52,667 nucleotides of DNA, from contig JAFZKA010000072.1 in assembly GCA_017551925.1 (NCBI GenBank), forward strand, positions 1-52,667, in the 5' to 3' direction. Position numbers and translations under genes: made by a program. Shown here in pieces: positions 20,232 through 41,068 of the stretch (position 1 is the stretch's first letter; every line of letters starts with the position of its first letter). The notes under the pieces are model-generated. The model made no database searches and was not told the origin of the DNA. It worked only from the letters and a program-made list of their open reading frames with translations. Origin of the DNA: Bacteroidaceae bacterium. Its GTDB lineage: Bacteria > Bacteroidota > Bacteroidia > Bacteroidales > Bacteroidaceae.

Positions 20232-20960
20232 ATGAAATACGCGTTGGTAACAGGCGGTTCAAGAGGTCTTGGCAGGGCTGTATGTTTACAGCTTGCAACT
20301 CAAGGATATCCTGTGCTGATTAACTATAAATCAAACTCTGATGCCGCCCTTGAAACAAAGAGACTGGTTGAGGAATCAGGCGGTCAGGCAGAGTTGCTGC
20401 CTTTTGATGTCTCCAACCAGAAAGAGGTTGAGTCTGCCGTGAATGAATGGCAGGATGCGCATAAGGATGATTACATTGCCGTTCTGGTCAATAACGCAGG
20501 AATACGCCGTGATAATCTGATGGTGTTTATGCAGGATGATGATTGGAACAGTGTTCTGAATACAAATCTGAACAGTTTCTTTTATCTGACACGCCGTCTG
20601 CTTAAAGATATGCTCTCAAAGCGCTGGGGCAGGATAGTCAATATGGCATCACTGTCAGGTATCAAGGGGCTTGCCGGGCAGACCAACTATTCTGCCGCAA
20701 AGGCTGCACTTATCGGTGCCACTAAGGCTTTGGCTCAGGAGGTTGCTGCGCGCAAGGTTACGGTAAACGCTGTCGCTCCGGGATTCATAGCAACTGATAT
20801 GACCAAGGAACTGCCTGAGGATGAACTCAAAAAGATGATTCCTGTAGCCCGTTTCGGTCGTCCTGAGGAGGTGGCTGCCGCTGTGGGCTTTCTGGTATCA
20901 GAAGGCGCATCGTACATAACGGGTGAGGTTATTTCAGTCAACGGAGGTCTTTATACTTGA
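20232..20960 (+). CDS. 3-oxoacyl-ACP reductase (FabG-like)
   Basis: A 242-residue short-chain dehydrogenase that should reduce ACP-bound 3-oxoacyl chains with NADPH. Motifs: TGGSRGLGRA (residues 7-16) for the cofactor, NNAGIRRDN near 88-96, the catalytic serine in NMASLSGIKG and YSAAKAA for Tyr-Lys, and a C-terminal GGLYT. First gene of the polyene cluster, four bases before the ketosynthase. In aryl polyene systems this is the ApeQ-type step. It could also serve housekeeping lipid synthesis, but its place as the first gene argues for the cluster. Confidence 0.92.
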   Translation: MKYALVTGGSRGLGRAVCLQLATQGYPVLINYKSNSDAALETKRLVEESGGQAELLPFDVSNQKEVESAVNEWQDAHKDDYIAVLVNNAGIRRDNLMVFMQDDDWNSVLNTNLNSFFYLTRRLLKDMLSKRWGRIVNMASLSGIKGLAGQTNYSAAKAALIGATKALAQEVAARKVTVNAVAPGFIATDMTKELPEDELKKMIPVARFGRPEEVAAAVGFLVSEGASYITGEVISVNGGLYT

Positions 20961-20964
20961 AACA

Positions 20965-22185
20965 ATGGGTAGAGTTGTTATAACAGGAATGGGAATATGG
21001 GGCTGTCTTGGCCAGAATCTTGATGATGTACGTGACGCTCTTTATGCAGGAAAATCAGGGATAGGTATTGATCCCGTGCGTAAAGAATACGGCTACAGGT
21101 CAGCTCTTACGGGAATTGTACCCACACCCGTACTGAAAGGTGTTCTTGACCGCCGCCTGCGTGCAGGTATGAGTGAGGAGGCTGAGTTTGCCTATATGGC
21201 ATCACGTGATGCATTTGCTGCAGCCGGCATTGATGATGATTATCTGCTCAACAATGAGGTTGGAGTGATATTCGGCAATGACTCATCGGCCAAACCGGTC
21301 ATAGAGACCAATCGTATCATGGAGGAGTATAAGGATACGGCGATGCTTGGATCCGGTCTTATATTCCAGTCCATGAACTCAACCGTAAACATGAACATGA
21401 GTACCATATTCCATCTGCGTGGCGTCAACTTTACGCTGAGTGCGGCCTGCGCCAGCGGTTCACATGCCATTGGATTAGGGTTCATGATGATACAGCAGGG
21501 ACTGCAGGATATGGTTTTGTGCGGTGGTGCACAGGAGACCAACTATCTCTCTATGGCTTCTTTTGATGCACTGTCAGCATTCTCGGTACGTATGGACGAG
21601 CCTACAAAGGCATCCCGTCCGTTTGACCGTGACCGCGACGGCCTTGTACCAAGCGGCGGTGCTGCGGCTCTGGTACTTGAGGATTATGACCATGCCGTTA
21701 AGCGTGGTGCCAGGATATTGGCCGAGGTGGCAGGTTACGGATTCTCATCGAACGGCAGCGGCGGCATATCGCAACCCAACTCCGATGCGTCATTCCTGGC
21801 TATGAGCCGTGCGCTTAAGCAGGCAGGGGTAAACCCGGATGATGTTGACTATATCAACGCTCATGCCACATCCACACCTCAGGGAGATATGTTTGAGGCT
21901 GTTGCTCTGGCCCGTCTGTTTGAAGGACGCAAGGCATGGATAAGTTCAACCAAGTCTATGACCGGACATGAGTGCTGGATGGCCGGTGCAAGTGAGGCTG
22001 TTTATAGCACACTCATGCTTAACAACGGTTTTGTGGCGCCCAATATCAATTTTGAGAACCCTGATGAGTATTCGGCTAAACTCAAGATAGCAGCCGAGAC
22101 CAAACAGACTGAATTAAAGACTGTACTGTCAAATTCCTTTGGTTTTGGAGGAACTAACAGTGCACTTGTAATCAAGAAGATATGA
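20965..22185 (+). CDS. 3-oxoacyl-ACP synthase (FabF-like ketosynthase 1)
   Basis: A 406-residue condensing enzyme. ATG 20965 (MGRVVITGMGIWG) is chosen; an upstream in-frame codon at 20923 lies in the previous gene and adds no conserved residues. The catalytic set is complete: C162 in SAACASGSHAIG, H300 in INAHATSTPQGD, K330 and H335 in TKSMTGHECW. It overlaps the methyltransferase by ATGA. Among the three active ketosynthases here it is closest in motifs to ordinary FabF. Whether it starts or extends the polyene cannot be told. Confidence 0.92.
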   Translation: MGRVVITGMGIWGCLGQNLDDVRDALYAGKSGIGIDPVRKEYGYRSALTGIVPTPVLKGVLDRRLRAGMSEEAEFAYMASRDAFAAAGIDDDYLLNNEVGVIFGNDSSAKPVIETNRIMEEYKDTAMLGSGLIFQSMNSTVNMNMSTIFHLRGVNFTLSAACASGSHAIGLGFMMIQQGLQDMVLCGGAQETNYLSMASFDALSAFSVRMDEPTKASRPFDRDRDGLVPSGGAAALVLEDYDHAVKRGARILAEVAGYGFSSNGSGGISQPNSDASFLAMSRALKQAGVNPDDVDYINAHATSTPQGDMFEAVALARLFEGRKAWISSTKSMTGHECWMAGASEAVYSTLMLNNGFVAPNINFENPDEYSAKLKIAAETKQTELKTVLSNSFGFGGTNSALVIKKI

Positions 22186-23288
22186 ATCTTTCACCAGCCT
22201 TGAAGGAGGCTTACACAAAAGAACATCTGAGCGCACGTGACGCACAGCGTCTGGCTGAGTTTATAGCATGGGGTCCGATAGTGTTCCAGGCATCACGCCT
22301 GATGATAAAGTTCGGAATACTGGACCTGTTGCGTGACAATGTTGACGGACTTACTCAGCAGGAGATTGCCGATAAGACCAAGTTGTCACTGTACGCAGTC
22401 AAGGTTCTCACAGAAGCGTCACTTTCCATAGGAACTGTTCTGCTGGATCCTGATACGGACCGTTTCAGCTTATCCAAGACAGGCTGGTTCCTGCTCACGA
22501 ATCCTATCACACGGGTTAACATAGACTTTAACCATGACGTGAATTATGAGGGCTGGTTCAAACTGGAGGAGTCACTCAAGGAGGGACGTCCCGCAGGATT
22601 GGAACATTTTGGAAACTGGCCTACGGTGTATGAGGGGCTTTCACAGTTGCCGGAGCAGGTTCAGAAGAGTTGGTTCGGTTTTGACCATTTCTACTCTGAC
22701 CACTCATTTGATGAGGCTCTCAAGATTGTGTTTGATGGCGGCCGTACCGAATCTCTGGTTGATGTAGGCGGTAATACCGGCCGATGGGCATTGCGTTGTG
22801 TTGATTACAATGACAAGGTCAAGGTTACCATAATGGACCTGCCACAGCAACTTGATATGATGCGCAGACAGACAGCAGGCAAGAAGGGTGCCGACCGCAT
22901 TGAGGGATTCGGCATAAATCTTTTGGACCGTACACAGAAGTTCCCCATGGGCCGTCACTTTGATGCCATATGGATGAGCCAGTTCCTGGACTGCTTCTCT
23001 GAGGATGAGATACTGAGCATACTTACACGTGCAGCCGAAGCAATGGACAAGAATACGCGTCTTTACATCATGGAGACCTTCTGGGACCGTCAGCGTTTTG
23101 AGCCGGGCGCACTGTGCCTGACCATGACAAGCCTCTATTTTACTGCTATTGCAAACGGAAACAGCAAGATGTATCATTCAGAATGCATGGAGCGTCTTGT
23201 TGAGAAGGCAGGAATGAAAGTGGAATGCATTCATGACAATCTTGGACAGGGAGGCCACAGCATTATGGTATGCGTTTTAAAAAACTGA
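22182..23288 (+). CDS. SAM-dependent methyltransferase (plant-type O-methyltransferase fold)
   Basis: A 368-residue methyltransferase. Residues about 25-100 form a winged-helix dimerisation domain (FGILDLL, LTQQEIADKTKLSLYAVKVL) and residues 190-340 the Rossmann domain, with the SAM loop LVDVGGNTGRWAL near residue 191 and DLPQQLDMM near 220. This layout is that of small-molecule O-methyltransferases. In the cluster it probably methylates a hydroxyl of the aryl head group; that is inferred from context. It is followed by an ACP after 21 bases. Confidence 0.85.
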   Translation: MNLSPALKEAYTKEHLSARDAQRLAEFIAWGPIVFQASRLMIKFGILDLLRDNVDGLTQQEIADKTKLSLYAVKVLTEASLSIGTVLLDPDTDRFSLSKTGWFLLTNPITRVNIDFNHDVNYEGWFKLEESLKEGRPAGLEHFGNWPTVYEGLSQLPEQVQKSWFGFDHFYSDHSFDEALKIVFDGGRTESLVDVGGNTGRWALRCVDYNDKVKVTIMDLPQQLDMMRRQTAGKKGADRIEGFGINLLDRTQKFPMGRHFDAIWMSQFLDCFSEDEILSILTRAAEAMDKNTRLYIMETFWDRQRFEPGALCLTMTSLYFTAIANGNSKMYHSECMERLVEKAGMKVECIHDNLGQGGHSIMVCVLKN

Positions 23289-23309
23289 TTTAAACAAGTA
23301 AACTGATAT

Positions 23310-23552
23310 ATGGACAGAAAAGAGATTGAAGCGAAAGTCAGAAATTTCATGATTGAGGATCTTGAAATTGATGAGGAAAAGATCTGCCCTGATGCGCTGC
23401 TAAAGCAGGATCTGGGTATAGACAGCCTGGATTTCATTGACATAGTGGTGATAGTGGAGAAGACATTCGGGGTTAAGATCAAGAGTGAGGAGATGGCTGG
23501 AGTTAAGACCTTCAGCGCGTTCTGTGACTATCTGGAGAGCAAGCTTGGCTAA
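23310..23552 (+). CDS. Acyl carrier protein 1
   Basis: An 80-residue ACP with the phosphopantetheine site S39 in LGIDSLDFIDIVVIVEK. It is acidic and helical as expected. The 3' end overlaps the next gene by eight bases. A second ACP at 27066 suggests separate carriers for priming and elongation, or for two pathway branches. Confidence 0.95.
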   Translation: MDRKEIEAKVRNFMIEDLEIDEEKICPDALLKQDLGIDSLDFIDIVVIVEKTFGVKIKSEEMAGVKTFSAFCDYLESKLG

Positions 23553-24444
23553 GAAAGGGGGTAAACCCGCAGAGTGGAAGGGTAGGACTGACGGACTGCC
23601 GTGGATGATACGTTCACTGGTAGTCATGATGAAGGTGATTGACAGGCGCGTCATTTATTGTTTCATGGCGATAGTGGTGCCTTTTTACATGATTTTTCAT
23701 CACGACAGTTATCTGGCTACATACAGATTCTTCAGACAGCGCTTTGGTTTGGGCCGTATCAAGTCATTCTTCAAGGTTTATGCCAATCATTTCCGTTTTG
23801 GTCAGGTCATTGTTGACCGTTATGCGGCCTATGCCGGTAAGAAGTTCCGTTTTGAACTGGACGGTAACGAGCGTTTCATGGAACTTGTAAATGGCGAGCG
23901 GGGATTTGTCCAACTGAGTTCACACGCAGGTAACTATGAGATGGTAGGATATGGTCTTACATCGACCGCCAAAAAGATCAACGGTCTGTTTTACGGAGGT
24001 GAGAGCAAGGTGATGATGGATTTCAGACGCAAGATACTGGCTCTGCACAACGTGAATCTGATTGAGGTCGATGAGAGCATGTCACATATCTTCAACATGA
24101 ATGCGGCAATAGACCGGGGTGAGATAGTGAGTATGACAGGTGACCGTCTGTTCGGTTCATCAAAGGCGCTCAAATGTATGTTCCTTGGTAAGGAAGCCCG
24201 TTTCCCGATGGGACCGTTTGCCCTGGCTGTGCAGAAGGAGGTGCCTATGCTGGCTGTGTTCTCCATGCGTTATCACGGCCGATACAGGGTCTATGTGAGG
24301 GATATAAAACAGGATGAGTCTCTGCCTTTAAGAGCCAGGATGGCTGATATGGCAGGAAAATTCGCTTCAGAACTTGAGAACGTGGTGAGGATGTATCCTA
24401 CCCAGTGGTTCAACTATTACGATTTCTGGAAAACTGATGAATGA
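23545..24444 (+). CDS. LpxL/HtrB-like lysophospholipid acyltransferase family protein
   Basis: A 299-residue membrane-associated acyltransferase. The best start is TTG 23545 (MAKKGGKPAEWKGRTDG), overlapping the ACP by eight bases with GGAGAG just upstream; an earlier ATG at 23485 lies deep in the ACP gene. A hydrophobic segment near residue 30-50 anchors it. The catalytic H-x4-E is in SSHAGNYEMVG, and TGDRLFGSS and FPMGPFALA match the LpxL group. It probably transfers the ACP-bound product or a fatty acid to a lipid or glycolipid acceptor at the inner membrane, as proposed for similar genes in aryl polyene clusters. Confidence 0.85.
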   Translation: MAKKGGKPAEWKGRTDGLPWMIRSLVVMMKVIDRRVIYCFMAIVVPFYMIFHHDSYLATYRFFRQRFGLGRIKSFFKVYANHFRFGQVIVDRYAAYAGKKFRFELDGNERFMELVNGERGFVQLSSHAGNYEMVGYGLTSTAKKINGLFYGGESKVMMDFRRKILALHNVNLIEVDESMSHIFNMNAAIDRGEIVSMTGDRLFGSSKALKCMFLGKEARFPMGPFALAVQKEVPMLAVFSMRYHGRYRVYVRDIKQDESLPLRARMADMAGKFASELENVVRMYPTQWFNYYDFWKTDE

Positions 24445-24859
24445 GTTTGAAAAGATAGATGTACATACGCTTCTGCCGCAGCAGGAGCCGTTTGTAATGA
24501 TAGACAGGCTGATTCATTATGACCCGGTTCGGACCGTTACAACGCTTCAGGTCAGGGCTGACAACATATTTGCCGATGACGGACACCTGTCAGTGGCAGG
24601 ACTGAATGAGAACATAGCCCAGACCTGCGCTGCCAGGATGGGTTACATCAGTCATTCATCGGGAGGTAAAGTGAAGATAGGAGTGATTGGTGCCATAACC
24701 GGATTCAGCGTGAGCCGTACTCCGCTGGTAGGTGAGGTACTGACAACAACAATAGATGTGATTCAGGAGGTTTTCAATGTGACACTGGTACATGCTACAG
24801 TAACCGTAGGGGCCGAAGTCATTGCTGAGACAGACCTCAAAATCGCATTGCAGGATTGA
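24437..24859 (+). CDS. ApeP-like hot-dog dehydratase subunit
   Basis: A 140-residue single hot-dog protein related to FabZ. It keeps the opening LLPQQEPFVMIDRL and the helix ENIAQTCAARMGY with the acidic residue that matches the FabZ catalytic glutamate. However, the HFPxxPxxPG loop that carries the FabZ histidine is replaced by a shorter DGHLSVAGLN. Such proteins (ApeP-like) work as dimers with a partner. The protein at 30479 has the complementary pattern. It overlaps both neighbours, so it is part of the same transcript. Confidence 0.78.
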   Translation: MNEFEKIDVHTLLPQQEPFVMIDRLIHYDPVRTVTTLQVRADNIFADDGHLSVAGLNENIAQTCAARMGYISHSSGGKVKIGVIGAITGFSVSRTPLVGEVLTTTIDVIQEVFNVTLVHATVTVGAEVIAETDLKIALQD

Positions 24860-24873
24860 GATTTGAAACTGAT

Positions 24874-25290
24874 ATGAAAGAACTTAAAGCAACCGTACCC
24901 CTTAATATCCGCTTCAGTGAGGTGGATTCAATGAACATTGTATGGCACGGATCATACGTGATGTATTTTGAAGATGCCCGTGAGGCGTTCGGCAAGAAGT
25001 ACGGTATAGCCTATCTTGATATATTCGGCAACGGCTTTTATGCTCCGCTGGTAGAACTCTCTTTCAAGTACAAGAGTCCCATCATATATGACATGAAACC
25101 GGAGATAACCATCACCTACAAGCCGGTTGATGCCGCCAAGATAGTATTCGATTATGAGATAACAAACCCGGAGAACGGTGATGTGCTTGCTACCGGCCAT
25201 TCAGTGCAGGTGTTCATGGATCTGAACTACCAGTTGGTATGGACCAATCCGGATTTTTATGAGGAGTGGAAGAGGAGATGGCTCGACTGA
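24874..25290 (+). CDS. Acyl-CoA/ACP thioesterase (4HBT family)
   Basis: A 138-residue hot-dog thioesterase. I start it at ATG 24874; an in-frame TTG at 24856 is possible. The 4HBT motif is FSEVDSMNIVWHGSYVMYFEDAR, with the aspartate of the active site, and a VELSFKYKSPI strand follows. It may release aberrant chains or the finished product from ACP. It overlaps the next ketosynthase by 13 bases. Confidence 0.87.
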   Translation: MKELKATVPLNIRFSEVDSMNIVWHGSYVMYFEDAREAFGKKYGIAYLDIFGNGFYAPLVELSFKYKSPIIYDMKPEITITYKPVDAAKIVFDYEITNPENGDVLATGHSVQVFMDLNYQLVWTNPDFYEEWKRRWLD

Positions 25291-26420
25291 TAAGATGCAT
25301 AGCTGATAACGTGGTGTCACCGTTGGGACTGGATTCACGTTCCAATTATGACAGCGTCAAGGCCGGAAAGTCCGGTCTGGCACGTTATGAGTTTATGGGT
25401 AACATAACTACTCCCTTTGTGCTGTCACGTATGGACCGCGGGGTCATTGACGCTCTGTGCGGTAAACTTGGCATAAAGGGTAACTACACTTTCTTTGAGA
25501 AGTTCCTGCTCTGTTCATCCGTTCAGGCGGTAAGGGAGTCAGGCATTGATGCTTCATCAGAGAGGGTGTTGTTCATAGTATCTACCACTAAAGGCAATAC
25601 GTCACTTTTAGGGCAGCCTCAGGATGGGGTGGCCGATGAGCGTGTATTGCTGGGCAAGGCTGCGCATGAGGTGTCACGTTTCTTTGGAAATCCCAATAGT
25701 CCGCTTGTGGTATGCAACGCCTGCATATCGGGTGTATGTGCCCAGATAGAGGCTATGCGTGCGCTGCGCAGTGGGCGTTATGATTACGCTGTAGTGATAG
25801 GGGCTGATGAGCAGTCACCGTTCATCATATCGGGATTCCTCTCATTCAAGGCCATATCCGATGAACCTTGCCGTCCGTTTGACAAGGAGCGTAAGGGGCT
25901 GAACCTGGGTGAGTGTGCCGCTACTGTGGTACTTGAGGCATCGGATGAGATAAAAGGCGGTTGGGAACTGGTTTGCGGCGCAATCCGTAACGATGCCAAC
26001 CATATTTCCGGGCCGTCACGTACGGGTGAAGGCAGTTACCTGGCACTGATGGAGGTGCTTAAGGAGTGCCGCCGTGAGGAACTGGCTTTCGTGAATGTAC
26101 ACGGTACAGCCACTGCCTATAATGATGAGATGGAATCAATTGCGCTATACCGTGCTGGCCTGATAGATGTTCCTGTAACCGGACTTAAAGGCTATTACGG
26201 CCACACCATGGGTGCTGCAGGTATAATGGAAAGCATTCTGTCCATGTATGCAGTACGTGACAATACGGTGCTTGCCACAGGAGGCTATCGTGAGCAGGGC
26301 GTGACCTATCCGGTGAGCGTGAGCAGTGAAGTAAGAGTGTGCAATGGCAGTGAGTTCATCAAACTGCTTTCAGGATTCGGCGGGAGCAATGCCGCACTTT
26401 TGTACAGATTTGTGGAGTAG
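25278..26420 (+). CDS. 3-oxoacyl-ACP synthase (ketosynthase 2)
   Basis: A 380-residue ketosynthase, divergent from FabF but with all catalytic residues: C149 in VCNACISGVCAQ, H275 in VNVHGTATAYND, K304 and H309 in LKGYYGHTMGAAG. The start at 25278 (MARLIRCIADNVVSPLG) is chosen over a GTG at 25266. The replacement of TKSMTGH by GLKGYYGH sets it apart from the other two ketosynthases and is like ApeR-type priming enzymes. It is followed two bases later by a short KS-like protein that may pair with it. Confidence 0.9.
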   Translation: MARLIRCIADNVVSPLGLDSRSNYDSVKAGKSGLARYEFMGNITTPFVLSRMDRGVIDALCGKLGIKGNYTFFEKFLLCSSVQAVRESGIDASSERVLFIVSTTKGNTSLLGQPQDGVADERVLLGKAAHEVSRFFGNPNSPLVVCNACISGVCAQIEAMRALRSGRYDYAVVIGADEQSPFIISGFLSFKAISDEPCRPFDKERKGLNLGECAATVVLEASDEIKGGWELVCGAIRNDANHISGPSRTGEGSYLALMEVLKECRREELAFVNVHGTATAYNDEMESIALYRAGLIDVPVTGLKGYYGHTMGAAGIMESILSMYAVRDNTVLATGGYREQGVTYPVSVSSEVRVCNGSEFIKLLSGFGGSNAALLYRFVE

Positions 26421-26422
26421 GT

Positions 26423-27061
26423 ATGGAGAGGAGAGGACTTGACTATGTAGTGCTGAATCAGGGATATGTCTCTGTGAACGGCCGTGTGATTGAGCATGAG
26501 GCTACGGGGAATGCTCTGCTTACTGAACTGTACCGTAACCATATTGCCGATTGGCCCAAATTCTTCAAGATGGATACTCTGAGCAAAGCCGGTTTCGTGG
26601 CCTCGGAGTTGTTGCTTAAAGAGACAGGTGAACGCCGTCTTGACGGCGAAGAGTTTACCTCCGGATGCGCCATAGTGCTATTCGGTGCCACAGCATCACT
26701 TTGCGCTGACAGAAACTATCAGGAGACTATTCGGGACAAGGATAATTATTATCCAAGCCCGGCGCTTTTCGTATATACTCTGCCTAACATAGTAACGGGT
26801 GAGATTGCTATCCGTAACCATTGGCGCGGAGAGACATCTTTCTATGTACTTGAGGCTCCTGATGCGGTTCAGATGGCCTTTCATCTGGCTTGTGCATTTC
26901 AGAACAAGACAACTGAGAGCATACTTGCAGGATGGGTGGACAGTTCACGCAACGATGATTTCCAGGCTTTCATGACTGTAATACGCAGAGAGGATGCTGC
27001 TGATACAGACTGGCTTGCGGGACAACTTAAACAGATGATTAACATTTTAAACAACAAGTGA
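26423..27061 (+). CDS. Short ketosynthase-like protein without catalytic residues
   Basis: A 212-residue protein that resembles half a condensing enzyme: YPSPALFVYTLPNIVTGEIAIRNHWRGE matches the strand-helix region before the KS cysteine, and the next stretch VLEAPDAVQMAFHLACAF corresponds to the nucleophile elbow, but no cysteine nucleophile or catalytic histidines are present. It lies between a ketosynthase and an ACP. A structural partner of ketosynthase 2, similar in idea to a chain-length factor, is the most likely role; this is an inference. Confidence 0.6.
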   Translation: MERRGLDYVVLNQGYVSVNGRVIEHEATGNALLTELYRNHIADWPKFFKMDTLSKAGFVASELLLKETGERRLDGEEFTSGCAIVLFGATASLCADRNYQETIRDKDNYYPSPALFVYTLPNIVTGEIAIRNHWRGETSFYVLEAPDAVQMAFHLACAFQNKTTESILAGWVDSSRNDDFQAFMTVIRREDAADTDWLAGQLKQMINILNNK

Positions 27062-27065
27062 TATT

Positions 27066-27323
27066 ATGGAAGAGATGATTCTTAAACTGAAGCAGGAGAT
27101 TATTGAGGTTCTTAATCTTGAAGACATCAAACCTGAGGATATTGACAATGACGCTCCTCTGTTTGGTGAAGGTCTGGGCCTTGATTCAATTGATGCACTT
27201 GAACTTATCGTTCTTATGGAGAAAAACTACGGCATCAAGTTGCAGGATCCTGCCAAGGGTAAGGAGATATTCAAGTCCATCAATGTGATGGCTGATTACA
27301 TTCAGAAAAACCGCACCAGATAA
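27066..27323 (+). CDS. Acyl carrier protein 2
   Basis: An 85-residue ACP with the phosphopantetheine site S41 in GLGLDSIDALELIVLMEK. Compared with ACP 1 it has a longer, more acidic N-terminal helix. Its stop overlaps the ATG of ketosynthase 3 by one base, so it is probably the carrier for the KS3/CLF pair. Confidence 0.95.
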   Translation: MEEMILKLKQEIIEVLNLEDIKPEDIDNDAPLFGEGLGLDSIDALELIVLMEKNYGIKLQDPAKGKEIFKSINVMADYIQKNRTR

Positions 27324-28522
27324 TGCCAGAGAGATCAGTGCTGATAACCGGCTGCGGCATTGTAAGTGCCATAGGCCTGGATTGCGGACAGGTGCTTGAT
27401 TCGCTCCTCAAGGTACGCACCGGCGTGGGGCCTCTCAAGTATCTCAAGACGGAACATACGGAATTCCCCGTAGGTGAGGTCAAGTTGTCCGATGAGGAGA
27501 TGGAGCGTATCATGGGCATTGCTCCCGGTACTCCTACCACTCGTACGGCACTGATGGGAATGATAGCCCTGCATGAGGCATTAGGTGAGGCTAAACTGAG
27601 CCGTGAGGATCTTAAGGAGTGTGGTTTTGTGAACGGCACTACCGTGGGCGGCATGGACAAGAGTGAGCAGTACTATCTGGATTTCATTGAGAATGACAGC
27701 CGTAACGCTTACATCGGTACCCATGACTGTGGTTCATGCTCCGAGATGATTGCTGACAGGTTCGGCCGGTTCAAGATGATAACCACCATATCCACGGCAT
27801 GCTCATCGGCAGCAAACGCCATTGAGATGGCGGCCGATATGATCCGTCTGGGTGAGGCCGATATTGTTGTGGCCGGAGGTTCGGAGTGCATCACCAAGTT
27901 CCACCTTAACGGCTTCAACTCACTGATGATACTGGACCATAACCAGTGCCGTCCGTTTGATGCAGAGCGCGCAGGGCTGAATCTTGGTGAGGGTGCCGCA
28001 TTTGTGGTGCTTGAGGAGTCTGGTCATGCTGCATCAAGAGGAGTCAAGGTTTTGGCACGTCTGTCAGGTTATGGAAATGCCTGTGACGCTTTCCACCAGA
28101 CCGCGTCATCGCCTGACGGTGAAGGCGCATATCTGGCTATGAGCAAGGCGCTTAATGAGGCTGGCTTAAAACCGCAGGATATTGATTACGTGAACGCTCA
28201 CGGCACTGGAACTCCCAATAATGACGAGAGTGAGAGCCAGGCCATGAAACGCCTGTTCGGCAGCAGTATGCCACCGGTGTCATCGACCAAATCAATGACC
28301 GGACATACCACAAGCGCATCGGGAGCAATTGAGACCGTTATCTGCATTCTGGCATTGAGAAACGGTTTCATACCTGTAAACTATGCGTTTGAGCACCCTA
28401 TGGAGAACGGCATCGTGCCTAATATGGATCTCAATAAAGGTTGCAGGCTGCGTCACGTTCTCTGTAACTCGTTCGGGTTTGGCGGCAACGATTCATCATT
28501 GGTAATTTCAGCGGCAGAATGA
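27323..28522 (+). CDS. 3-oxoacyl-ACP synthase (ketosynthase 3, ApeO-like alpha subunit)
   Basis: A 399-residue FabF-type ketosynthase with C160 in ISTACSSAANAIE, H293 in VNAHGTGTPNNDE, K323 and H328 in TKSMTGHTTSAS. It overlaps by ATGA a cysteine-less homologue. That arrangement is the KS/chain-length-factor pair of type II systems, including ApeO-ApeC of aryl polyene synthesis. It therefore probably does the repeated malonyl extension of the polyene chain. Confidence 0.92.
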   Translation: MPERSVLITGCGIVSAIGLDCGQVLDSLLKVRTGVGPLKYLKTEHTEFPVGEVKLSDEEMERIMGIAPGTPTTRTALMGMIALHEALGEAKLSREDLKECGFVNGTTVGGMDKSEQYYLDFIENDSRNAYIGTHDCGSCSEMIADRFGRFKMITTISTACSSAANAIEMAADMIRLGEADIVVAGGSECITKFHLNGFNSLMILDHNQCRPFDAERAGLNLGEGAAFVVLEESGHAASRGVKVLARLSGYGNACDAFHQTASSPDGEGAYLAMSKALNEAGLKPQDIDYVNAHGTGTPNNDESESQAMKRLFGSSMPPVSSTKSMTGHTTSASGAIETVICILALRNGFIPVNYAFEHPMENGIVPNMDLNKGCRLRHVLCNSFGFGGNDSSLVISAAE

Positions 28523-29873: not shown

Positions 29874-29874
29874 T

Positions 29875-30871: not shown

Positions 30872-30872
30872 G

Positions 30873-31607
30873 ATGTCAAGATACTGCATCATAATACCCA
30901 CATTCAATAACGGCGGCACTGTGGCCGGCGTGGTGGAGCGTGCGCTTAAGGTGTGCACTGATGTGATTGTGGTCAATGACGGCAGTACGGACAACACGGT
31001 ATCAGGGTTATGCGGATCTGACATAACACTCCTTACCCATGAACGCAACAAAGGCAAGGGAAAGGCTTTGAAGACAGGCCTGGAATATGCTGCAAGGAAT
31101 GGTTTTAGCCATGCCGTTACCATTGATGCTGACGGACAGCATTTTCCCGAGGATATTCCTGCACTCATAAGAGTGGCCGATGAGCATCCGGACAGGATAA
31201 TAGTGGGGTGCCGAAATCTTACGAGTGAGAATATGCCGCGTCAGAATACGTTTGCCAACCGGTTCTCAAACTTCTGGTTCCGTCTGCAGACAGCTCAGAA
31301 GGTTGATGACACACAGTCCGGATTCCGTGTCTATCCGCTTGATGCGCTGCACGGGATGGGGCTGCTGACAGCCCGATATGAGGCGGAACTGGAACTTCTG
31401 GTCTTTGCTGCCTGGAATGGTGTACGGATAGAGACTGTTCCGGTGCGTGTATGGTACGCCCCTGCCGGAGAGCGTGTATCACATTTCCGCCCGTTCTGGG
31501 ATTTTTTCAGAATCTCCGTTCTGAACACATTGCTCTGCTTTGGCGCACTACTTTACGGTGTGCCGGCGGCATTGGTCAGAAAGATAAAACGTAAGAGCCA
31601 TGACTGA
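30873..31607 (+). CDS. Glycosyltransferase family 2 (dolichol-phosphate-mannosyltransferase-like)
   Basis: A 244-residue GT2 enzyme: CIIIPTFNNGGTVAGVV (residues 5-21), VIVVNDGSTDNT near 31-42, the metal site TIDADGQHFPED near 83-94 and TQSGFRVYPLDAL near 147. A C-terminal hydrophobic stretch (ISVLNTLLCFGALLYGVPAALV) probably holds it at the membrane. GT2 genes occur in aryl polyene clusters and may glycosylate the lipid carrier or product. It overlaps the MMPL gene by eight bases. Confidence 0.88.
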   Translation: MSRYCIIIPTFNNGGTVAGVVERALKVCTDVIVVNDGSTDNTVSGLCGSDITLLTHERNKGKGKALKTGLEYAARNGFSHAVTIDADGQHFPEDIPALIRVADEHPDRIIVGCRNLTSENMPRQNTFANRFSNFWFRLQTAQKVDDTQSGFRVYPLDALHGMGLLTARYEAELELLVFAAWNGVRIETVPVRVWYAPAGERVSHFRPFWDFFRISVLNTLLCFGALLYGVPAALVRKIKRKSHD

Positions 31608-34584: not shown

Positions 34585-34586
34585 TT

Positions 34587-36077
34587 ATGGAGGTGGTGAT
34601 CATAGGTGCAGGAATGGGCGGATTGTTCTGTGGCGCGCTCTTGGCTAAACGGGGTGTCAGGGTTACCGTGCTTGAGAAAAACAGCACCATAGGCGGCGGA
34701 CTTCAGACATTTGTGCGTGGCGGAGAGACCTATGAGACCGGAATGCATGTGGTGGGAGGTTTCAATGAAGGAGGAATCCTGAACAGTATCTGCCGCTATC
34801 TTGGTATAATGGACAGATTGCGCATACGCTGTTCAGACATGATGCTGTGTGTCAGATACACAGACAGCGGGCGCACATATAATCTGCCTGCAGGCAGAGA
34901 GGCGTTTGTGGATTATCTGTCAGGATTGTTTCTGCATGAGAAAGAGAACATAAGAGAATATGTTGATGCCGTATTCCGTATATCCCATGAGGAGAAACTG
35001 TTCTATCTGGAGAGTCTGAGCAGTAATGAGAATCACTCGCCGGAGTTCTTTATGCCGGCCGATGCCTTCATCGCAAAGTATGTGAAAGATACGGAACTAC
35101 GTGCTCTCCTGGCATCAGTTAATCCGTTATACTCAGGTATTCCGGGACATTCACCTGCTTATATCCACATAATGATCTCAGCACTTTTCATGGAGAACCC
35201 CTGCTGGTTTGACGGCGGTTCCGGACAGTTGGCTGAGGCTCTTAAGAGTGTGATTGAAGATGCCGGAGGACGTGTGCTGACGCGATGTGAGGTGGCATCG
35301 GTCCGTGTATCGGACATGAATGTGGTTTGTGTGACAGATAAGGCCGGTAATGAATATCGTGGGGACTGGTATATCAGTGATATACACCCGTGTACCCTGA
35401 TTCCGATGATTGACGGCAAGGCTTTTACCGCAGGTTACTGCAGCCGCATTGAGAGCATTCCTGACACGGCATCGGCTTTCAAGGTGTTCATCAAGCTCAA
35501 ACCGGGTGCAATACGTTTCCCGGGTCATCCTGTATGCATTATTGACAGCAAGGACAATGTATGGAAAATGGCCCGGTATGAAAGCGGGGAGTGGCCTCAT
35601 GGCGCAAACTGCTTCTTCGGCGAGGGCCGGGACGGATGGGCTTCACACATGACAATATATTGCCTGATGGACTTTGAAGAGGTCCAGGAGTGGGAGAATA
35701 CCCATTCCGGACATCGTGGAGAATCATATGAGGCATGGAAGAGGGAGCGCACAGACAGGGTCGTTTCACTTGTAGAAAAATGGTATCCCGGAATAAGGGA
35801 ATGTGCGGAGGATATTTTTGCATCGTCTCCGCTCACTTTCAGGGACTGGTTTGGTACCCGCAGGGCAGGCGCTTACGGCCTTTTCAAGGATTGCGGCAAC
35901 ATAGCGGCATCACTTATTCCTATCAAGACAAAGGTTAAGAATCTGTTGCTTACAGGACAAAATGTAAATATGCACGGAATTGGTGGAGTACCGATGACTG
36001 CAATTGAAACCATTCAGACTATATTTGCAGATGATTCTGTACTGAACGGAATAAAAGAGGTAATAGCAAACAAGTAA
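34587..36077 (+). CDS. FAD-dependent oxidoreductase (CrtI/phytoene-desaturase-like)
   Basis: A 496-residue flavoprotein. The ATG at 34587 gives MEVVIIGAGMGGLFCGALLA, a dinucleotide fold at residues 3-33; a TTG at 34581 is less likely. Further marks are GGGLQTFVRGGETYETGMHVVGG and the C-terminal LLLTGQNVNMHGIGGVPMTAIET. The family includes carotenoid desaturases and retinol saturases, which act on conjugated chains. In this cluster it could introduce or remove double bonds of the polyene or oxidise the head group. Such a gene is not part of the minimal E. coli or Vibrio aryl polyene set. Confidence 0.85.
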   Translation: MEVVIIGAGMGGLFCGALLAKRGVRVTVLEKNSTIGGGLQTFVRGGETYETGMHVVGGFNEGGILNSICRYLGIMDRLRIRCSDMMLCVRYTDSGRTYNLPAGREAFVDYLSGLFLHEKENIREYVDAVFRISHEEKLFYLESLSSNENHSPEFFMPADAFIAKYVKDTELRALLASVNPLYSGIPGHSPAYIHIMISALFMENPCWFDGGSGQLAEALKSVIEDAGGRVLTRCEVASVRVSDMNVVCVTDKAGNEYRGDWYISDIHPCTLIPMIDGKAFTAGYCSRIESIPDTASAFKVFIKLKPGAIRFPGHPVCIIDSKDNVWKMARYESGEWPHGANCFFGEGRDGWASHMTIYCLMDFEEVQEWENTHSGHRGESYEAWKRERTDRVVSLVEKWYPGIRECAEDIFASSPLTFRDWFGTRRAGAYGLFKDCGNIAASLIPIKTKVKNLLLTGQNVNMHGIGGVPMTAIETIQTIFADDSVLNGIKEVIANK

Positions 36078-36103
36078 TAGAAACGAGTAATATAAAGGAC
36101 GAT

Positions 36104-37399
36104 ATGAACACTTTCAAGTTAAAGCTCATATATCCCAAGTGGCAGAAACTAAGAGGCCAGACAACTTTCAACCTGCCGCCTCACGGACCTGTGGCATTTG
36201 CCGCCACGCTACCCGAATGGGTGGATGTGTCATTTACCGATGAGAATGTTGAGCCTATAGACTTTGATGAAGAGTGTGATGGTGTAGCGCTCTCAATGAT
36301 GCTCAGCACTCAGGTCAAGCGCGGATGGGAGATAGCAGACGAGTATCACAAGCGCGGCAAACTGGTTGCAGCGGGAGGTATCTCCACCATGCTTCATGCC
36401 GAGGAGATGGTAAATCATGTGGACAGTGTCTTTCTGGGTGAGGCCGAGGGCCGTTCCGAGCAGATGATGATTGACTGGGTGAACGGTGACTTGAAGAAGA
36501 TATACAACTACATGGGCAATATGCCTCCCATTGAGTCTGTAGGCCCCTGTCGCCGTGACCTCTATAAACGTGAACTTTATAACCACAAAGGCGTGCAGAT
36601 GGTGGACCTGTTCCATGCCAGCCGCGGATGCCGTTTCAGTTGCTATCCCTGTGCAGTGTCATATCTGGGAGGCCGTAAGTTCCGTCCGCGTCCTATTGAC
36701 AAGGTGGTTGAGGATATGGCTGCCATTGATAACAACCGCCTGTTTATTGTAGATAACTCATTGGCACAGAACAAGGAGTGGGAGAAAGAACTCTTTACCG
36801 CTATTGCTCCTTTGAAAAAGAAATGGATAAGCCATACCATTGAGGATGATCCCGAGGTTCTGGACCTTGCCGCCAAGGCAGGTGCCTGGTATGTGTATCA
36901 GGCGGTTTATGATACATCGGACTATATCAAGGAGCGCGTAAAGCGCTATCATGATTACGGAATAGGCGTTGAGGGTACCATCCTTCTGGGACTTGATAAC
37001 CAGACCGAGGATGACATTAAGCGTCTGATAGATTTCCTTGGTGAGATTGACCTTGACCTTGCAGAGTTTACCGTAATGACTCCGTTCCCGCACACCAAGG
37101 GATATGATGACCTGCTGCGCCAGGGACGTATCTTTGACTTTGACTGGAACCATTACAATGCAGGTCAGGTGGTGTTCCAGCCCAAGCATATGAGTCCGGA
37201 ACGCCTGCAGGAACTATATGACTACGCATGGAAGAGTTTCTATGCCAGTGAGAGCCAGGAGCAGAAAATGTTCCGTCTGTTCTGCAATGTGGCTCTGCGT
37301 GAGATGGAAGAGGGCACATACCGCCCGCGTGACCGCAGGCTTGCCAACAAGTCATTCGGCCGCGATGTTGACAGAAGTGTAAGAAATGTAAATCTATGA
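36104..37399 (+). CDS. B12-binding-type radical SAM protein
   Basis: A 431-residue radical SAM enzyme. Residues about 1-130 resemble the cobalamin-binding domain of class B radical SAM proteins (DFDEECDGVALSMMLSTQ, LVAAGGISTMLHAEE) but the DxHxxG base-off motif is not evident. The iron-sulfur cysteines are C176, C180 and C183 in HASRGCRFSCYPCAV, followed by GGRKFRPRP. Later, EGTILLGLDNQTEDD and MTPFPHTKG are typical of this group. Relatives methylate unactivated carbons or form rings. A head-group or chain C-methylation is inferred. It overlaps the small gene after it by four bases. Confidence 0.88.
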   Translation: MNTFKLKLIYPKWQKLRGQTTFNLPPHGPVAFAATLPEWVDVSFTDENVEPIDFDEECDGVALSMMLSTQVKRGWEIADEYHKRGKLVAAGGISTMLHAEEMVNHVDSVFLGEAEGRSEQMMIDWVNGDLKKIYNYMGNMPPIESVGPCRRDLYKRELYNHKGVQMVDLFHASRGCRFSCYPCAVSYLGGRKFRPRPIDKVVEDMAAIDNNRLFIVDNSLAQNKEWEKELFTAIAPLKKKWISHTIEDDPEVLDLAAKAGAWYVYQAVYDTSDYIKERVKRYHDYGIGVEGTILLGLDNQTEDDIKRLIDFLGEIDLDLAEFTVMTPFPHTKGYDDLLRQGRIFDFDWNHYNAGQVVFQPKHMSPERLQELYDYAWKSFYASESQEQKMFRLFCNVALREMEEGTYRPRDRRLANKSFGRDVDRSVRNVNL

Positions 37400-37758
37400 A
37401 AGTATCACCAGATTATTACGACGAGATATTTGATTTCAAGGGCGAATGGGATATGCCCTCATCATGCGGTCTCAAGATTCGTTCGCTTGACGGCAAGCCA
37501 TGCGTTATCGTAACGGAACTGTATCAGGATAATCCCGGTACATCTGTGACATATGCCGGAAAGAAACTGGCAGAGCAGATTTGTGAGGCCAAGGGGTTGA
37601 ATCTGAATGAAATAATATACGTTGAGTGTAATCCCAACACCAATTCCAAACTCTCTTTCTATGATGAGGAGTTCTTTCAGGTTGATTTCAATGCCGATAT
37701 TCAGCATCGTTACCGTCAACTTGACAGGACAGAGGTTATGAAAATGACTGCAGACTGA
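37396..37758 (+). CDS. 120-residue protein of unknown function, coupled to the radical SAM gene
   Basis: I do not recognise a family. It is soluble, acidic and without signal or membrane segment. Repeated short strands (KPCVIVTELYQDNPGTSVT, IIYVECNPN, SFYDEEFFQVDF) suggest a small beta-rich fold. Its ATG overlaps the stop of the radical SAM gene, and its stop overlaps the ATG of the esterase by one base. The strict coupling suggests it works with the radical SAM enzyme, perhaps as a substrate-binding or chaperone subunit. Confidence 0.7.
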   Translation: MKVSPDYYDEIFDFKGEWDMPSSCGLKIRSLDGKPCVIVTELYQDNPGTSVTYAGKKLAEQICEAKGLNLNEIIYVECNPNTNSKLSFYDEEFFQVDFNADIQHRYRQLDRTEVMKMTAD

Positions 37759-38639
37759 TGCTCGGAAAGTTATTGTTGCTCATACCACTTATAATTATTC
37801 CAGCCAGGAATAGTTTCACGCCGTGGGCAGGTCAGGACAGACGTGCTCAGGATGTGATACTTACACCGTATATAACTGATGACAGCAGGAATGCTCCTAC
37901 GGTAATAATATGTCCCGGCGGCAGTTATTGCTGGCTTGATGTAAAGGGTGAAGGTATTGAAGTGGCTGAGTGGCTTAATGAGCAGGGCGTATCGGCTTTC
38001 CTTTTGCAGTACAGAACCGCCGGGTTCGGTGCCTATTTTACGCGTTATCGCTATGTGGCACGCGGAAACCGCCATCCTGATATGATCTGTGACGTACAGA
38101 GAGCAATCCGCTACGTTCGTGAGAATGCAGACAGTCTGGATATTGATCCTGATAAAGTGGGCGTATTGGGCTTTTCCGCCGGCGGGCATCTGGCATTGTG
38201 CTCAGCCTGTTTCAGCGAAACGGATTATACTGATTTACCCCAAGGACTGGCCACGGTATCGCTCAGACCTGCTTTTGTAGGCGCTATTTACCCTGTAGTC
38301 ACAATGAGCGGAGAATATGCGCATAAGCGTTCACGCCGCGGATTACTGGGAGAGTGGGGCAAGAGGAACAAGGCAATGAGAGACAGTATGTCTGTTGAAA
38401 AGCATATCCCCTCTGACTGCCCGCCGGTGTTCTTTGTAAATTGTAAAGATGATCCGGTGGTTGACTGGCATAATTCAGTTTTGCTTGATGAGGCGTTGAC
38501 AGAGGCCGGTATTGAGCATACTTATATACAATATGAGACCGGCCGACACGGATTCGGTGTCAGTGAGGTTTATGGCACCAGGGAGTCCAGGCAATGGAAA
38601 TACAGGTTTATTGAGTGGCTGGACCAGATAGGATTTTAA
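37758..38639 (+). CDS. Alpha/beta hydrolase (HSL/BD-FAE-type esterase)
   Basis: A 293-residue hydrolase with an N-terminal hydrophobic stretch that may be a signal or anchor. The oxyanion motif is ICPGGSYCWL (residues 51-60), the nucleophile S140 is in GVLGFSAGGHLAL, the acid is in CKDDPVVDWHN and the base in GRHGFGVS. The family cleaves acyl and carbohydrate esters. In the cluster it may release the product or remove an acetyl or aryl ester; as it could be exported, a role on plant-wall esters is the alternative. Coupled to both neighbours. Confidence 0.83.
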   Translation: MLGKLLLLIPLIIIPARNSFTPWAGQDRRAQDVILTPYITDDSRNAPTVIICPGGSYCWLDVKGEGIEVAEWLNEQGVSAFLLQYRTAGFGAYFTRYRYVARGNRHPDMICDVQRAIRYVRENADSLDIDPDKVGVLGFSAGGHLALCSACFSETDYTDLPQGLATVSLRPAFVGAIYPVVTMSGEYAHKRSRRGLLGEWGKRNKAMRDSMSVEKHIPSDCPPVFFVNCKDDPVVDWHNSVLLDEALTEAGIEHTYIQYETGRHGFGVSEVYGTRESRQWKYRFIEWLDQIGF

Positions 38640-38642
38640 GTT

Positions 38643-39938
38643 ATGGAAAAGGATATAGAATTTGAAAGCCCTGAACGGATCAAGGAATTCCAGGAGGAAC
38701 TGCTTAAAAAGCACTTGTCTTATCTCAAGTCAAATTCTGTCTATTACAGAAGGCTGTTTGACAGTTACGGCATTAAAACAGAAAAGATAAGACATCTTGA
38801 GGATCTTGTCAGGATTCCGTTTACAGAGAAGAAAGACCTTCAACTCTACAATGATGATTTCTGCTGCGTTCCGCGCAAAAAGATAATAGATTACATAACC
38901 ACGTCGGGCACATTAGGTGATCCGGTGTTGTTCGGATGTACTGAAAAAGACCTGCAGCGCTTGGCATATAATGAGAAAAAGTCATTTGAGTGCGCCGGTC
39001 TGACCGATGAAAGCGTGCTGCAACTTATGACCACGCTTGACAAGCGTTTCATGGCAGGCATGGCCTATTTCTTGGGGCTTAGGGAGATGGGCGCAGGTGT
39101 GATTCGTGTAGGCAACGGCATACCTGAACTGCAGTGGGATACCATACGCCGTTTTCACCCTGATGCCATAATGTGCGTTCCGTCATTCATTCTGAAACTG
39201 ATTGATTACGCTGAGTCACACGGTATTGACTATCATTCCAGCAGCATACGCCGCATAATAGGTATAGGTGAGGGCTTGCGTGACCAGAATTTCGGTTACA
39301 ACCTGTTGGGCCGTCAGATTCATGAGCGTTGGCCAGAGGTTCAACTGTTTGCCACATATTCATCAACAGAGATGGGTGCCACATTCAGTGAGTGCGAGTA
39401 CGGAATGGGCGGTCATGTGCATCCGGAACTCATTATTGTTGAAATTATAGGCGATGACGGTTTTCCTGTAGCCGACGGTCAGCCTGGTGAGGTCGTAGTG
39501 ACCACGCTTGGTGTTGAGGGCATGCCTTTGCTGCGTTTCCGCACCGGCGATATAGCCTGCAAGCATGTTGAGCAATGCCGCTGCGGCCGATGGTCATACC
39601 GTCTGTCACCGCTTTTGGGCAGAAAGAACAACATGATCAAACTCAAGGGTACCACACTGTATCCGCCTGCCATATATGATGTGCTTGACAACACTGATTA
39701 CGTTGAGAATTATGTGGTTATTGTACGCAACAGCGAGGCCGGAACTGATGAAGTACTGGTTAAGGTGGGACTCAGGCATAATCCGGAATTTGATGCCATC
39801 AAGGAACTCAAGGACCGTTTCCGTTCCCGCATACGTGTGGCTCCTGAGATTGAGATCTGTCCGGTTGAGCAGATCAATGCAATCAATTATCCGCCTACAG
39901 GCCGCAAGCCGGTCAAGTTTATTGATGAGAGAAAATAA
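38643..39938 (+). CDS. Phenylacetate-CoA ligase-like adenylating enzyme
   Basis: A 431-residue member of the PaaK branch of the ANL superfamily, which activates aryl or other carboxylic acids with ATP. The phosphate loop is TTSGTLGDPV (residues 86-95), the adenine region YSSTEMG (239-245), the ribose aspartate in FRTGDIA (299-305), and the hinge/C-domain starts around KLKGTTLYPPAIYD. It has all expected parts. It would load the starter acid, as ApeH does in aryl polyene systems, though it is of the PaaK type. It is four bases from the esterase stop and overlaps the next acyltransferase by one base. Confidence 0.87.
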   Translation: MEKDIEFESPERIKEFQEELLKKHLSYLKSNSVYYRRLFDSYGIKTEKIRHLEDLVRIPFTEKKDLQLYNDDFCCVPRKKIIDYITTSGTLGDPVLFGCTEKDLQRLAYNEKKSFECAGLTDESVLQLMTTLDKRFMAGMAYFLGLREMGAGVIRVGNGIPELQWDTIRRFHPDAIMCVPSFILKLIDYAESHGIDYHSSSIRRIIGIGEGLRDQNFGYNLLGRQIHERWPEVQLFATYSSTEMGATFSECEYGMGGHVHPELIIVEIIGDDGFPVADGQPGEVVVTTLGVEGMPLLRFRTGDIACKHVEQCRCGRWSYRLSPLLGRKNNMIKLKGTTLYPPAIYDVLDNTDYVENYVVIVRNSEAGTDEVLVKVGLRHNPEFDAIKELKDRFRSRIRVAPEIEICPVEQINAINYPPTGRKPVKFIDERK

Positions 39939-41068
39939 TGATTATGGAGAGAGAAACCCGTTTTGACGATATCCGTCCATACAGGGACGATGAGATTCCG
40001 GCAGCAATGCAACGCATTGTCTCTGACCCGTATTTTCCGCCTATGGCACAGTATGTCTATCCGGACCGGACCGTAGATGAGGTTAAGGAGATATTTCTCA
40101 GTTGTCATAACATCTTTGAGTTCCAGACAACCGTGATGAAACAGGTTAATGAACAGGTCATTGAACATACTACTGACGGCCTTACATTCGGTGGAATTGA
40201 ACGGCTTGACCCCTCCAAGCGTTACCTCTATATAAGTAATCACAGGGATATTGTGCTTGATTCCTGTCTGCTGATGTATATCCTGCATACAAACGGTCTC
40301 AAGATTGGTGAGATAACATTCGGTTCCAATCTTATGAAAGGCCAGATGGTTATAGACATAGGCAAGAGCAACAAGATGTTCCGTGTGGAGCGTGGCGGTA
40401 ATCCGCGTCAGATGTATCTCAACTCGCTTCATCTGTCAGATTATATCAGATACGCCATTACAGAAAAACATGAGTCCGTATGGATTGCCCAGCGTAACGG
40501 TCGCACCAAGGATGGCATTGACCACACAGACCAGGGGCTTATCAAGATGCTCAGTATGAGCGGTGGAAAAGACCGTGTCCAGTCTCTTGCGCAGTTGAAT
40601 ATTGTGCCGGTGTCAGTGTCATATGAATGGGAGTCCTGTGACATTCTTAAAGCACTTGAACTATATGCATCCCGTGACGGTAAACCATATGTCAAGAAAC
40701 CGGGTGAGGACCTGAACAGCATTATTACCGGAATAACCCAGCCCAAGGGCAGAGTGCATATTGAATTGTGTGAACCGCTGACAGCGCAGGAACTGAATGC
40801 TATCCCCTCAGATTATGTCGATGCGCAGTTCCGCCACGCTGTAGCGGAAATTTTGGACAGGCGCATCTGCAGCGGTTACCGTTTGTATCCGAATGCCTAT
40901 ATCGCCAGCGATATCCGTTCCGGTAGCAATCGTTTTGCAGACCGATACACACCTGAGCAGTATGATGCCTTTAAGGCGCGTCTTTCAGAATTGGAGAAAT
41001 ATGGTACGGATCCGGTGCTGCGTGATTTGTTCCTTGGCATTTATTCCAACCCCGTCATTATTGAATAA
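39938..41068 (+). CDS. PlsC-like acyltransferase
   Basis: A 376-residue 1-acyl-glycerol-3-phosphate acyltransferase-like protein. The acyltransferase motif reads SNHRDIVLDS (about residues 100-109), where His and Asp are five residues apart (H102 to D108 in H-x5-D) rather than the usual H-x4-D; QRNGRTKDG near 190 takes the place of the PEGTRS motif. These variants are seen in a group of Bacteroidetes acyltransferases. ATG 39944 is an alternative start. Last gene of the compact run; it may acylate the product or a carrier lipid. Confidence 0.8.
   Translation: MIMERETRFDDIRPYRDDEIPAAMQRIVSDPYFPPMAQYVYPDRTVDEVKEIFLSCHNIFEFQTTVMKQVNEQVIEHTTDGLTFGGIERLDPSKRYLYISNHRDIVLDSCLLMYILHTNGLKIGEITFGSNLMKGQMVIDIGKSNKMFRVERGGNPRQMYLNSLHLSDYIRYAITEKHESVWIAQRNGRTKDGIDHTDQGLIKMLSMSGGKDRVQSLAQLNIVPVSVSYEWESCDILKALELYASRDGKPYVKKPGEDLNSIITGITQPKGRVHIELCEPLTAQELNAIPSDYVDAQFRHAVAEILDRRICSGYRLYPNAYIASDIRSGSNRFADRYTPEQYDAFKARLSELEKYGTDPVLRDLFLGIYSNPVIIE

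Follow-up and report, generated by a model that had tools for sequence, protein, structure and literature searches.

A probable flexirubin-type aryl polyene operon with a reduced start and a radical SAM/orphan protein pair in a Bacteroidaceae genome

The window analysed here is a 52,667-nucleotide stretch from a Bacteroidaceae bacterium (contig JAFZKA010000072.1, positions 1–52,667 of the forward strand, assembly GCA_017551925.1); the source genome is 2.6 Mb and 97% complete. Its positions 20232–41068 hold 23 open frames, and it is likely that these form a flexirubin-type (flx) aryl polyene operon of gut Bacteroidales, with a reduced start and altered tailoring, which works as proposed below. 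It is not a strict flexirubin cluster, since two defining parts, FlxA and DarB, were searched for and not found. We also put forward, as a tentative and on balance rather doubtful proposal, that gut Bacteroidales have repeatedly lost the tyrosine ammonia-lyase FlxA and build their outer-membrane polyene on hydroxycinnamates scavenged from plant material in the host diet, and that at the same time a radical S-adenosylmethionine (SAM) protein and a 120-residue orphan protein (p120) make up an order-wide tailoring module of flexirubin-type operons. The repeated lyase loss in Bacteroidaceae and the radical SAM/p120 module are what is new relative to the literature found.

Gene identities were assigned by Pfam and NCBIfam scans with curated cut-offs (Table 1). 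Proteins of the window passed four NCBIfam flexirubin models, FlxB, FlxJ, LolA2 and FlxY, in agreement with the aryl polyene/flexirubin-type core recognised in an initial annotation. Most of the gene list given there was also recovered by Pfam; the MMPL match, however, remained below the Pfam cut-off (18.2 bits vs 20.5), and the 212-residue protein listed as a short ketosynthase (KS) matched only weakly, its profile aligning in hhalign with part of the Cys-less KS at E 5e-4. Kinship of this protein with KS2 was considered and rejected (hhalign E 0.36, no match). The PaaK-like ligase, which had been regarded as new, is the flexirubin enzyme FlxY, and the CrtI-like flavoprotein, also taken as new, precedes FlxY in many flx clusters. 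The annotation had held that the product cannot be named from sequence. This is true of the exact product, yet a class can be proposed from the gene content, namely an aryl polyene carboxylate that is methylated and starts from an aryl acid activated by FlxY; this acid is probably a hydroxycinnamate.

Comparisons with published clusters follow the parts of the cited texts that were accessible. In Chitinophaga pinensis, FlxA was assayed as a tyrosine ammonia-lyase and FlxY as a 4-coumarate:CoA ligase, and FlxV and FlxB were named as possible reductases of the pathway (Schoner et al., PMC3992019). Judged by position, FlxV may be the counterpart of the CrtI-like protein. The FlxB, FlxJ, LolA2 and FlxY families are common to the window and to the flxA–flxY cluster of C. 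pinensis and Flavobacterium johnsoniae, and the KS set, dehydratases, glycosyltransferase, exporter and acyltransferase are alike as far as the description in PMC3992019 goes. Unlike that cluster, the window has a PlsC domain fused to MMPL, its genome has neither an FlxA-family gene nor DarB, and its radical SAM protein, 120-residue protein and BD-FAE esterase have no mention in the accessible text of PMC3992019. LolA2 has been linked to flexirubin loci (PMC11885536). A flexirubin cluster cloud of 268 clusters spans five of six classes (PMC9248904), and a flexirubin-like cluster, pBGC-12, is reported from gut Bacteroides xylanisolvens (PMC12940132), which by its description resembles the window operon in being flx-type and from gut Bacteroidales; as these two reports stand, the kind is therefore already known, the gut included.

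At class level 65 of 396 genomes have a FlxY above its cut-off, and at family level 43 of 298. When regions from 24 Bacteroidales genomes, several of them partial, were compared, the recurring order was (FlxA)-FlxB-KS1-(MT)-ACP-LpxL-(MT)-DH-TE-KS2-short KS-ACP2-KS3-CLF in the first half and (EamA)-LolA-DH-GT2-MMPL-CrtI(-CrtI)-(radical SAM-p120)-(esterase)-FlxY-(PlsC) in the second, with optional genes in brackets (MT, methyltransferase; ACP, acyl carrier protein; DH, dehydratase; TE, thioesterase; CLF, chain-length factor). Because gene order is retained across many genomes, the arrangement is more than chance. The 23 genes probably constitute a single transcript. In a class sample of 30 genomes the order was looser, FlxY was often apart from the core within the stretch examined, and CrtI-like matches occurred in 12 genomes. 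FlxA, absent from the window, is the first cluster gene in G067, G584, G589 and G597 of the same family and in G093 of the same order. Two genomes of the window's genus, G001 (L204/L190) and G027 (L205/L191), contain a divergent flx cluster whose FlxY is 56–58% identical to that of the window and branches with that of G106; radical SAM, CrtI, esterase and FlxJ genes were undetected in the stretch examined, which in G027 is partial.

The operon also resembles apeA–R of Escherichia coli in its type II polyketide synthase logic, with two ACPs, two DHs, a CLF, a TE and an MT, and in its LolA, RND exporter and acyltransferases (PMC8253772). The core enzyme list given there is identical, which would suit a proteobacterial-type aryl polyene operon primed with 4-hydroxybenzoate from chorismate. 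We consider such an origin very unlikely: the ligase is FlxY and not an acyl-ACP synthetase of the type of ApeH, the E. coli starter enzyme for 4-hydroxybenzoate, and the chorismate lyase family PF04345 (UbiC) was found in none of 12 genomes, the window's included, with a positive E. coli control (the search was confined to this one of the enzymes leading from chorismate to hydroxybenzoate). In addition, radical SAM, CrtI and esterase genes are all missing from the apeA–R gene table (PMC8253772, as far as accessible).

The initial annotation had noted that the window contains no tyrosine ammonia-lyase, and this absence extends to the whole genome and the genus. PF00221 is the histidine/phenylalanine/tyrosine ammonia-lyase family, and any member was counted, so that positive genomes may hold only a histidine ammonia-lyase. 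The family was found in 0 of 37 genomes, comprising the window's genome and 36 of the same genus (completeness 62–100%). Among 44 genomes of the family with FlxY at E≤1e-100, it was present in 31 (G067 included) and absent from 13: seven of the window's genus, G041, G556, G576, G617, G631 and G702, of which G041 and G576 are each assembled as one contig. PF00221 was present in each of the 30 tested genomes with FlxY from outside the family (taken from the 65 of the class, with the family's own removed), and also in G106, G111 and G099. A tree of 30 FlxY rows requires at least four changes of the lyase label on well-supported branches, which suggests that the lyase was lost repeatedly in Bacteroidaceae while FlxY was retained.

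Since the aromatic lyase family is absent while FlxY is kept, the starter must either be supplied externally or reach FlxY by some other route. We infer uptake of a hydroxycinnamate from the surroundings, in the gut a plant hydroxycinnamate; the arabinoxylans and lignin of plant cell walls carry bound ferulic and p-coumaric acid (PMC9695934), and the records nearest to the window's genus are mainly from ruminants and horses. A phenyllactyl-CoA-type dehydratase as a source of coumarate was rejected, PF06050 being found in 0 of 13 genomes searched.

FlxY shows no sign of decay or of a shift in specificity tied to lyase loss, because its invariant columns are kept. Of the 63 columns that do not vary among 26 lyase-associated FlxYs, the window FlxY matches 62, and its sole deviation, A240S, is shared with the lyase-bearing G584 and G597; the number kept was 60–63 in 12 lyase-less rows and 61–63 in nine lyase-bearing controls. 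The C. pinensis enzyme prefers 4-coumarate over cinnamate 121-fold, and its other substrates are cinnamate, 3-indoleacrylate, indole-3-propionate, 3-chlorocinnamate and 3-phenylpropionate (PMC3992019). This breadth would allow FlxY of the window to activate another aryl acid of the gut, such as ferulate, phenylpropionate or indoleacrylate, so that the head would not be 4-hydroxyphenyl; we regard this as unlikely, as no FlxY column change is tied to lyase loss. The absence of FlxA and DarB could also indicate a decaying, non-functional cluster that has lost its first gene. This is highly improbable, since 23 of 23 frames are open, the KS motifs and the constraint on FlxY are kept, all 23 genes are found in G010, G017 and G005 of the same genus, and the radical SAM gene is found in 23 of 36 same-genus genomes. 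Two points weigh against the working proposed here: the mean identity of the window FlxY to the 26 lyase-associated FlxYs is 0.51, and an unrelated tyrosine lyase or other route to 4-coumarate may be the source instead.

The radical SAM protein, p120 and the esterase had been listed as new in the window; they recur in Bacteroidales clusters and are thus not peculiar to it. Within the order, 43 of 392 genomes, under 18 family labels, have a radical SAM match at E≤1e-120; in a class-wide sample of 396 genomes, two have one at E≤1e-80, both from Bacteroidales. We further collected 80 named loci chosen by their radical SAM gene, a selection that the neighbour counts and identities carry with them; their sources include the rumen and omasum, further gut sites of ruminants, horse faeces and Tannerella, and their record titles include Caecibacteroides pullorum AN421 and Candidatus Colenecus caballi. 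One of them, L271, is titled Clostridiales and carries a Bacteroidales-type cluster, and is probably a mislabelled metagenome bin. In these loci p120 occurs in 74, always directly after radical SAM (0–194 bases). CrtI is present in 70 of them, the esterase in 67 and FlxY in 59; FlxA was found within reach in three, and DarB in two. Relative to the window, radical SAM has a median identity of 89%, FlxY of 77% and MMPL of 42%. Six stretches from other families were also compared, and in all six a radical SAM relative has flx- or dar-type neighbours and is directly followed by p120: L294, L295 and L296 have MMPL, CrtI, esterase, FlxY and PlsC-like genes nearby, L297 has FlxA, FlxB, DarG-like and DarH-like genes, and in L298 and L299 the neighbours are CrtI and MMPL or a distant DarB-like KS, not FlxY. 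In L290 (genome G452) and L291, both from Tannerella, radical SAM heads a darA-B-G-H-like row, in which DarB, with a score of 543, stayed under its cut-off of 550, DarG passed the subfamily model but not the equivalog, and DarH passed; the first protein matched no family and is presumed by us to be darA. Four loci from other families contain a protein of about 565 residues between CrtI and radical SAM (L038, 6708–8405; L168, 3595–5274; L298, 3615–5321; and L299, 2566–4269); that of L038 belongs to the C45 autoproteolytic acyltransferase family, and the other three are similar at their N-termini.

The presence of radical SAM and p120 in lyase-less genomes of the window's genus might suggest that the pair replaces FlxA and uses radical chemistry to turn tyrosine into the aromatic starter, and in G452 p120 directly follows FlxA, as it follows radical SAM in the window. 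We reject this substitution as very improbable, because radical SAM and FlxA coexist in G597, L223, L229, L230 and L297, and because in G041 radical SAM and lyase are both absent genome-wide while FlxY is kept. Moreover, no lyase is present anywhere in the genomes of G576 and G702, and the cluster examined in each has no radical SAM. The G452 row itself, FlxA-p120-FlxY-PlsC-like (L081/L082, 16503–20957), has no adjoining polyketide core, and the radical SAM and dar-like genes of this genome lie on another contig.

We propose that the radical SAM/p120 pair makes a further change to the polyene part. Our best guess is a second C-methylation, though this is less likely than not. Cys 176, 180 and 183 of the radical SAM protein (CxxxCxxC) are invariant in alignments of six and 16 rows, and the cobalamin-binding family PF02310 scored 20.8 bits, below its cut-off of 32.1. 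The structure model has an N-terminal Rossmann-like domain, but its overall confidence is low (predicted local distance difference test (pLDDT) 59.9), too poor for reading the active site. Foldseek returned 17 matches at E≤0.001, including AprD4, MgmA, MiaB, TsrM, CysS and RimO. The CxxxCxxC motif and, in the model, the Rossmann-like domain appear to be shared with the B12-type enzymes AprD4, MgmA, TsrM and CysS; unlike these, the window protein had no NCBIfam member above cut-off and no PDB sequence match. p120 has Cys 24, 63 and 78 invariant in 33 rows; it matched no Pfam or NCBIfam family, and its model (pLDDT 79) had no PDB fold match at E≤0.001.

Several observations weigh against a B12-type tailoring module of flexirubin-type operons. 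Among the nearest structures are MiaB and RimO, neither of which is known to be a B12 enzyme, and the TM-scores are near 0.3. Radical SAM loci L289, L292 and that of G099 have no recognised flx neighbour in the stretch examined. Radical SAM was not found in G041 and G067, nor in the examined clusters of G576, G702, G584, G589, G093 and others, so flx clusters can do without it. Our literature search, which covered few subscription papers, found no paper combining flexirubin and radical SAM, nor one combining arylpolyene, radical SAM and Prevotella, and the pair in flx and dialkylresorcinol operons seems to be undescribed.

The esterase belongs by PF20434 to the BD-FAE family of feruloyl/acetylxylan esterases. 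Its family, its hydrophobic N-terminus, its position next to flxY and the GH67 and GH43 genes flanking the operon would fit an enzyme that releases plant coumarate or ferulate from xylan and feeds FlxY. On the other side, of 21 radical SAM loci that show no FlxY in the stretch examined, 14 have the esterase (one of the 14 being truncated), and G584 and G597 have it alongside FlxA; these counts lead us to downgrade a dedicated coumarate supplier to quite unlikely; in the lyase-less G556, G617, G631, G001 and G027, FlxY is present and the esterase undetected. Its distribution follows the lipid/acyltransferase part no less closely than it follows the starter. A different AMP-ligase, unlike FlxY, is present in six of the 21 FlxY-less loci (L243, 15124–16440, 438 residues; L253, L255, L261, L266 and L270), placed after the PlsC-like gene or, in L266, after the esterase, which suggests that starter loading is the changeable end of the pathway. 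L243 is the locus of Caecibacteroides pullorum AN421, which thus has the radical SAM/p120 pair and, in the stretch examined, no FlxY.

The initial annotation had found no DarA/DarB pair in the window. For DarB (NF053539) the absence is genome-wide, with no match in the window's genome at E≤0.001, and the model was above cut-off in none of 61 genomes searched; the DarA part was left at the window, no genome-wide search having been made. As DarB is absent, the polyene acid is probably esterified to something other than a dialkylresorcinol, and the LpxL-like and PlsC-like acyltransferases, as in aryl polyene clusters (PMC8253772, accessible part), point to a lipid as the anchor.

The gaps between genes range from −68 to +26 bases as called, consistent with the small gaps and overlaps on one strand described initially. 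The −68 depends on the start of the LpxL-like gene, GTG at 23485; with ATG at 23605 the gap becomes +52. A tRNA-Thr gene on the opposite strand lies immediately ahead of the operon, and an Rfam search of the window detected no RNA besides tRNA. The promoter candidate in Table 1 falls one base short of the consensus TAnnTTTG. GC content is about 0.47–0.51 in the operon and 0.38–0.50 in the surroundings; horizontal transfer was not adopted on this contrast, composition not being accepted as evidence.

Table 1. Genes of the operon and the promoter candidate ahead of it (window positions)
Feature	Position	Strand	Basis and remarks
Possible Bacteroidetes-type promoter, TTG ... TAnTTTG	20160..20190	+	Pattern count only; weak
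FlxB-type short-chain dehydrogenase/reductase ketoreductase	20232..20960	+	NF053542 411 bits, cut-off 340
Ketosynthase KS1, Cys and His motifs present	20965..22185	+	PF00109/PF02801; GTG at 20923 is an alternative upstream start
FlxJ-family methyltransferase (O-methyltransferase-type; proposed ring methylation)	22182..23288	+	NF053543 600 bits, cut-off 560
Acyl carrier protein 1	23310..23552	+	PF00550
LpxL-like acyltransferase, start uncertain	23485..24444	+	PF03279
Hotdog dehydratase (FabZ/ApeP-like)	24437..24859	+	No Pfam match; FabZ 31 bits, below cut-off; conserved position
4HBT thioesterase	24856..25290	+	PF13279
Ketosynthase KS2, Cys and His motifs present	25278..26420	+	PF00109/PF02801; motifs read from sequence
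212-residue protein, short KS-like	26423..27061	+	No Pfam/NCBIfam match; weak profile match to Cys-less KS
Acyl carrier protein 2	27066..27323	+	PF00550; NF006617 above cut-off
Ketosynthase KS3, Cys and His motifs present	27323..28522	+	PF00109/PF02801; motifs read from sequence
Cys-less KS, probable chain-length factor	28519..29532	+	PF13723
EamA/ArnE-like membrane protein, 117 residues	29520..29873	+	PF00892; ArnE below cut-off; missing from the initial list
LolA2 flexirubin carrier	29875..30495	+	NF053544 127.1 bits, cut-off 125 (margin ~2 bits)
FabA/ApeI-like hotdog dehydratase	30479..30871	+	PF07977 26 bits, cut-off 23
GT2 glycosyltransferase	30873..31607	+	PF00535
MMPL-type exporter with fused C-terminal PlsC acyltransferase	31600..34584	+	PF01553 at residues 808–917; HAE3 below cut-off
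CrtI/CrtD-like FAD oxidoreductase	34581..36077	+	PF01593; recurs ahead of FlxY
B12-type radical SAM protein	36104..37399	+	PF04055 above cut-off, PF02310 below; CxxxCxxC
120-residue orphan protein (p120), radical SAM partner	37396..37758	+	No family; three invariant Cys
BD-FAE-family esterase, hydrophobic N-terminus	37758..38639	+	PF20434 84.2 bits, cut-off 26.8
FlxY aryl-CoA ligase (PaaK-like)	38643..39938	+	NF053551 684 bits, cut-off 520
PlsC-like acyltransferase (second PlsC-type domain of the operon)	39938..41068	+	PF01553 24.3 bits, cut-off 23

The operon is flanked by genes for GH67 (17838–19946), CotH (41158–43284) and GH43 (43303–44676). GH43 also follows the operon in G010, G017 and G005, and GH67 also precedes it in G017 and G005. 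Elsewhere in the window, positions 13617–15296 encode a 559-residue protein with three TonB_C-domain stretches, and 46244–47218 on the reverse strand a transposase-like gene of the PDDEXK_2 nuclease family.

In the working that we propose, FlxY would activate a hydroxycinnamate, most likely 4-coumarate, as its CoA thioester, and the type II KS/chain-length factor enzymes, ketoreductase and dehydratases would add malonyl units, so that a conjugated polyene grows on the two ACPs. FlxJ would methylate the ring, and the polyene part would perhaps receive a second methyl group from the radical SAM/p120 pair. The thioesterase would free the polyene acid, LpxL/PlsC-type acyltransferases would join it to a lipid, and MMPL and LolA2 would transport the product to the outer membrane. 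If this is true, a bacterial membrane pigment depends on plant phenolics released by the gut community, which would tie envelope chemistry directly to diet. Independently of this, the conserved radical SAM/orphan protein pair in a well-known pigment pathway is a concrete target in the search for new carbon-modifying chemistry.

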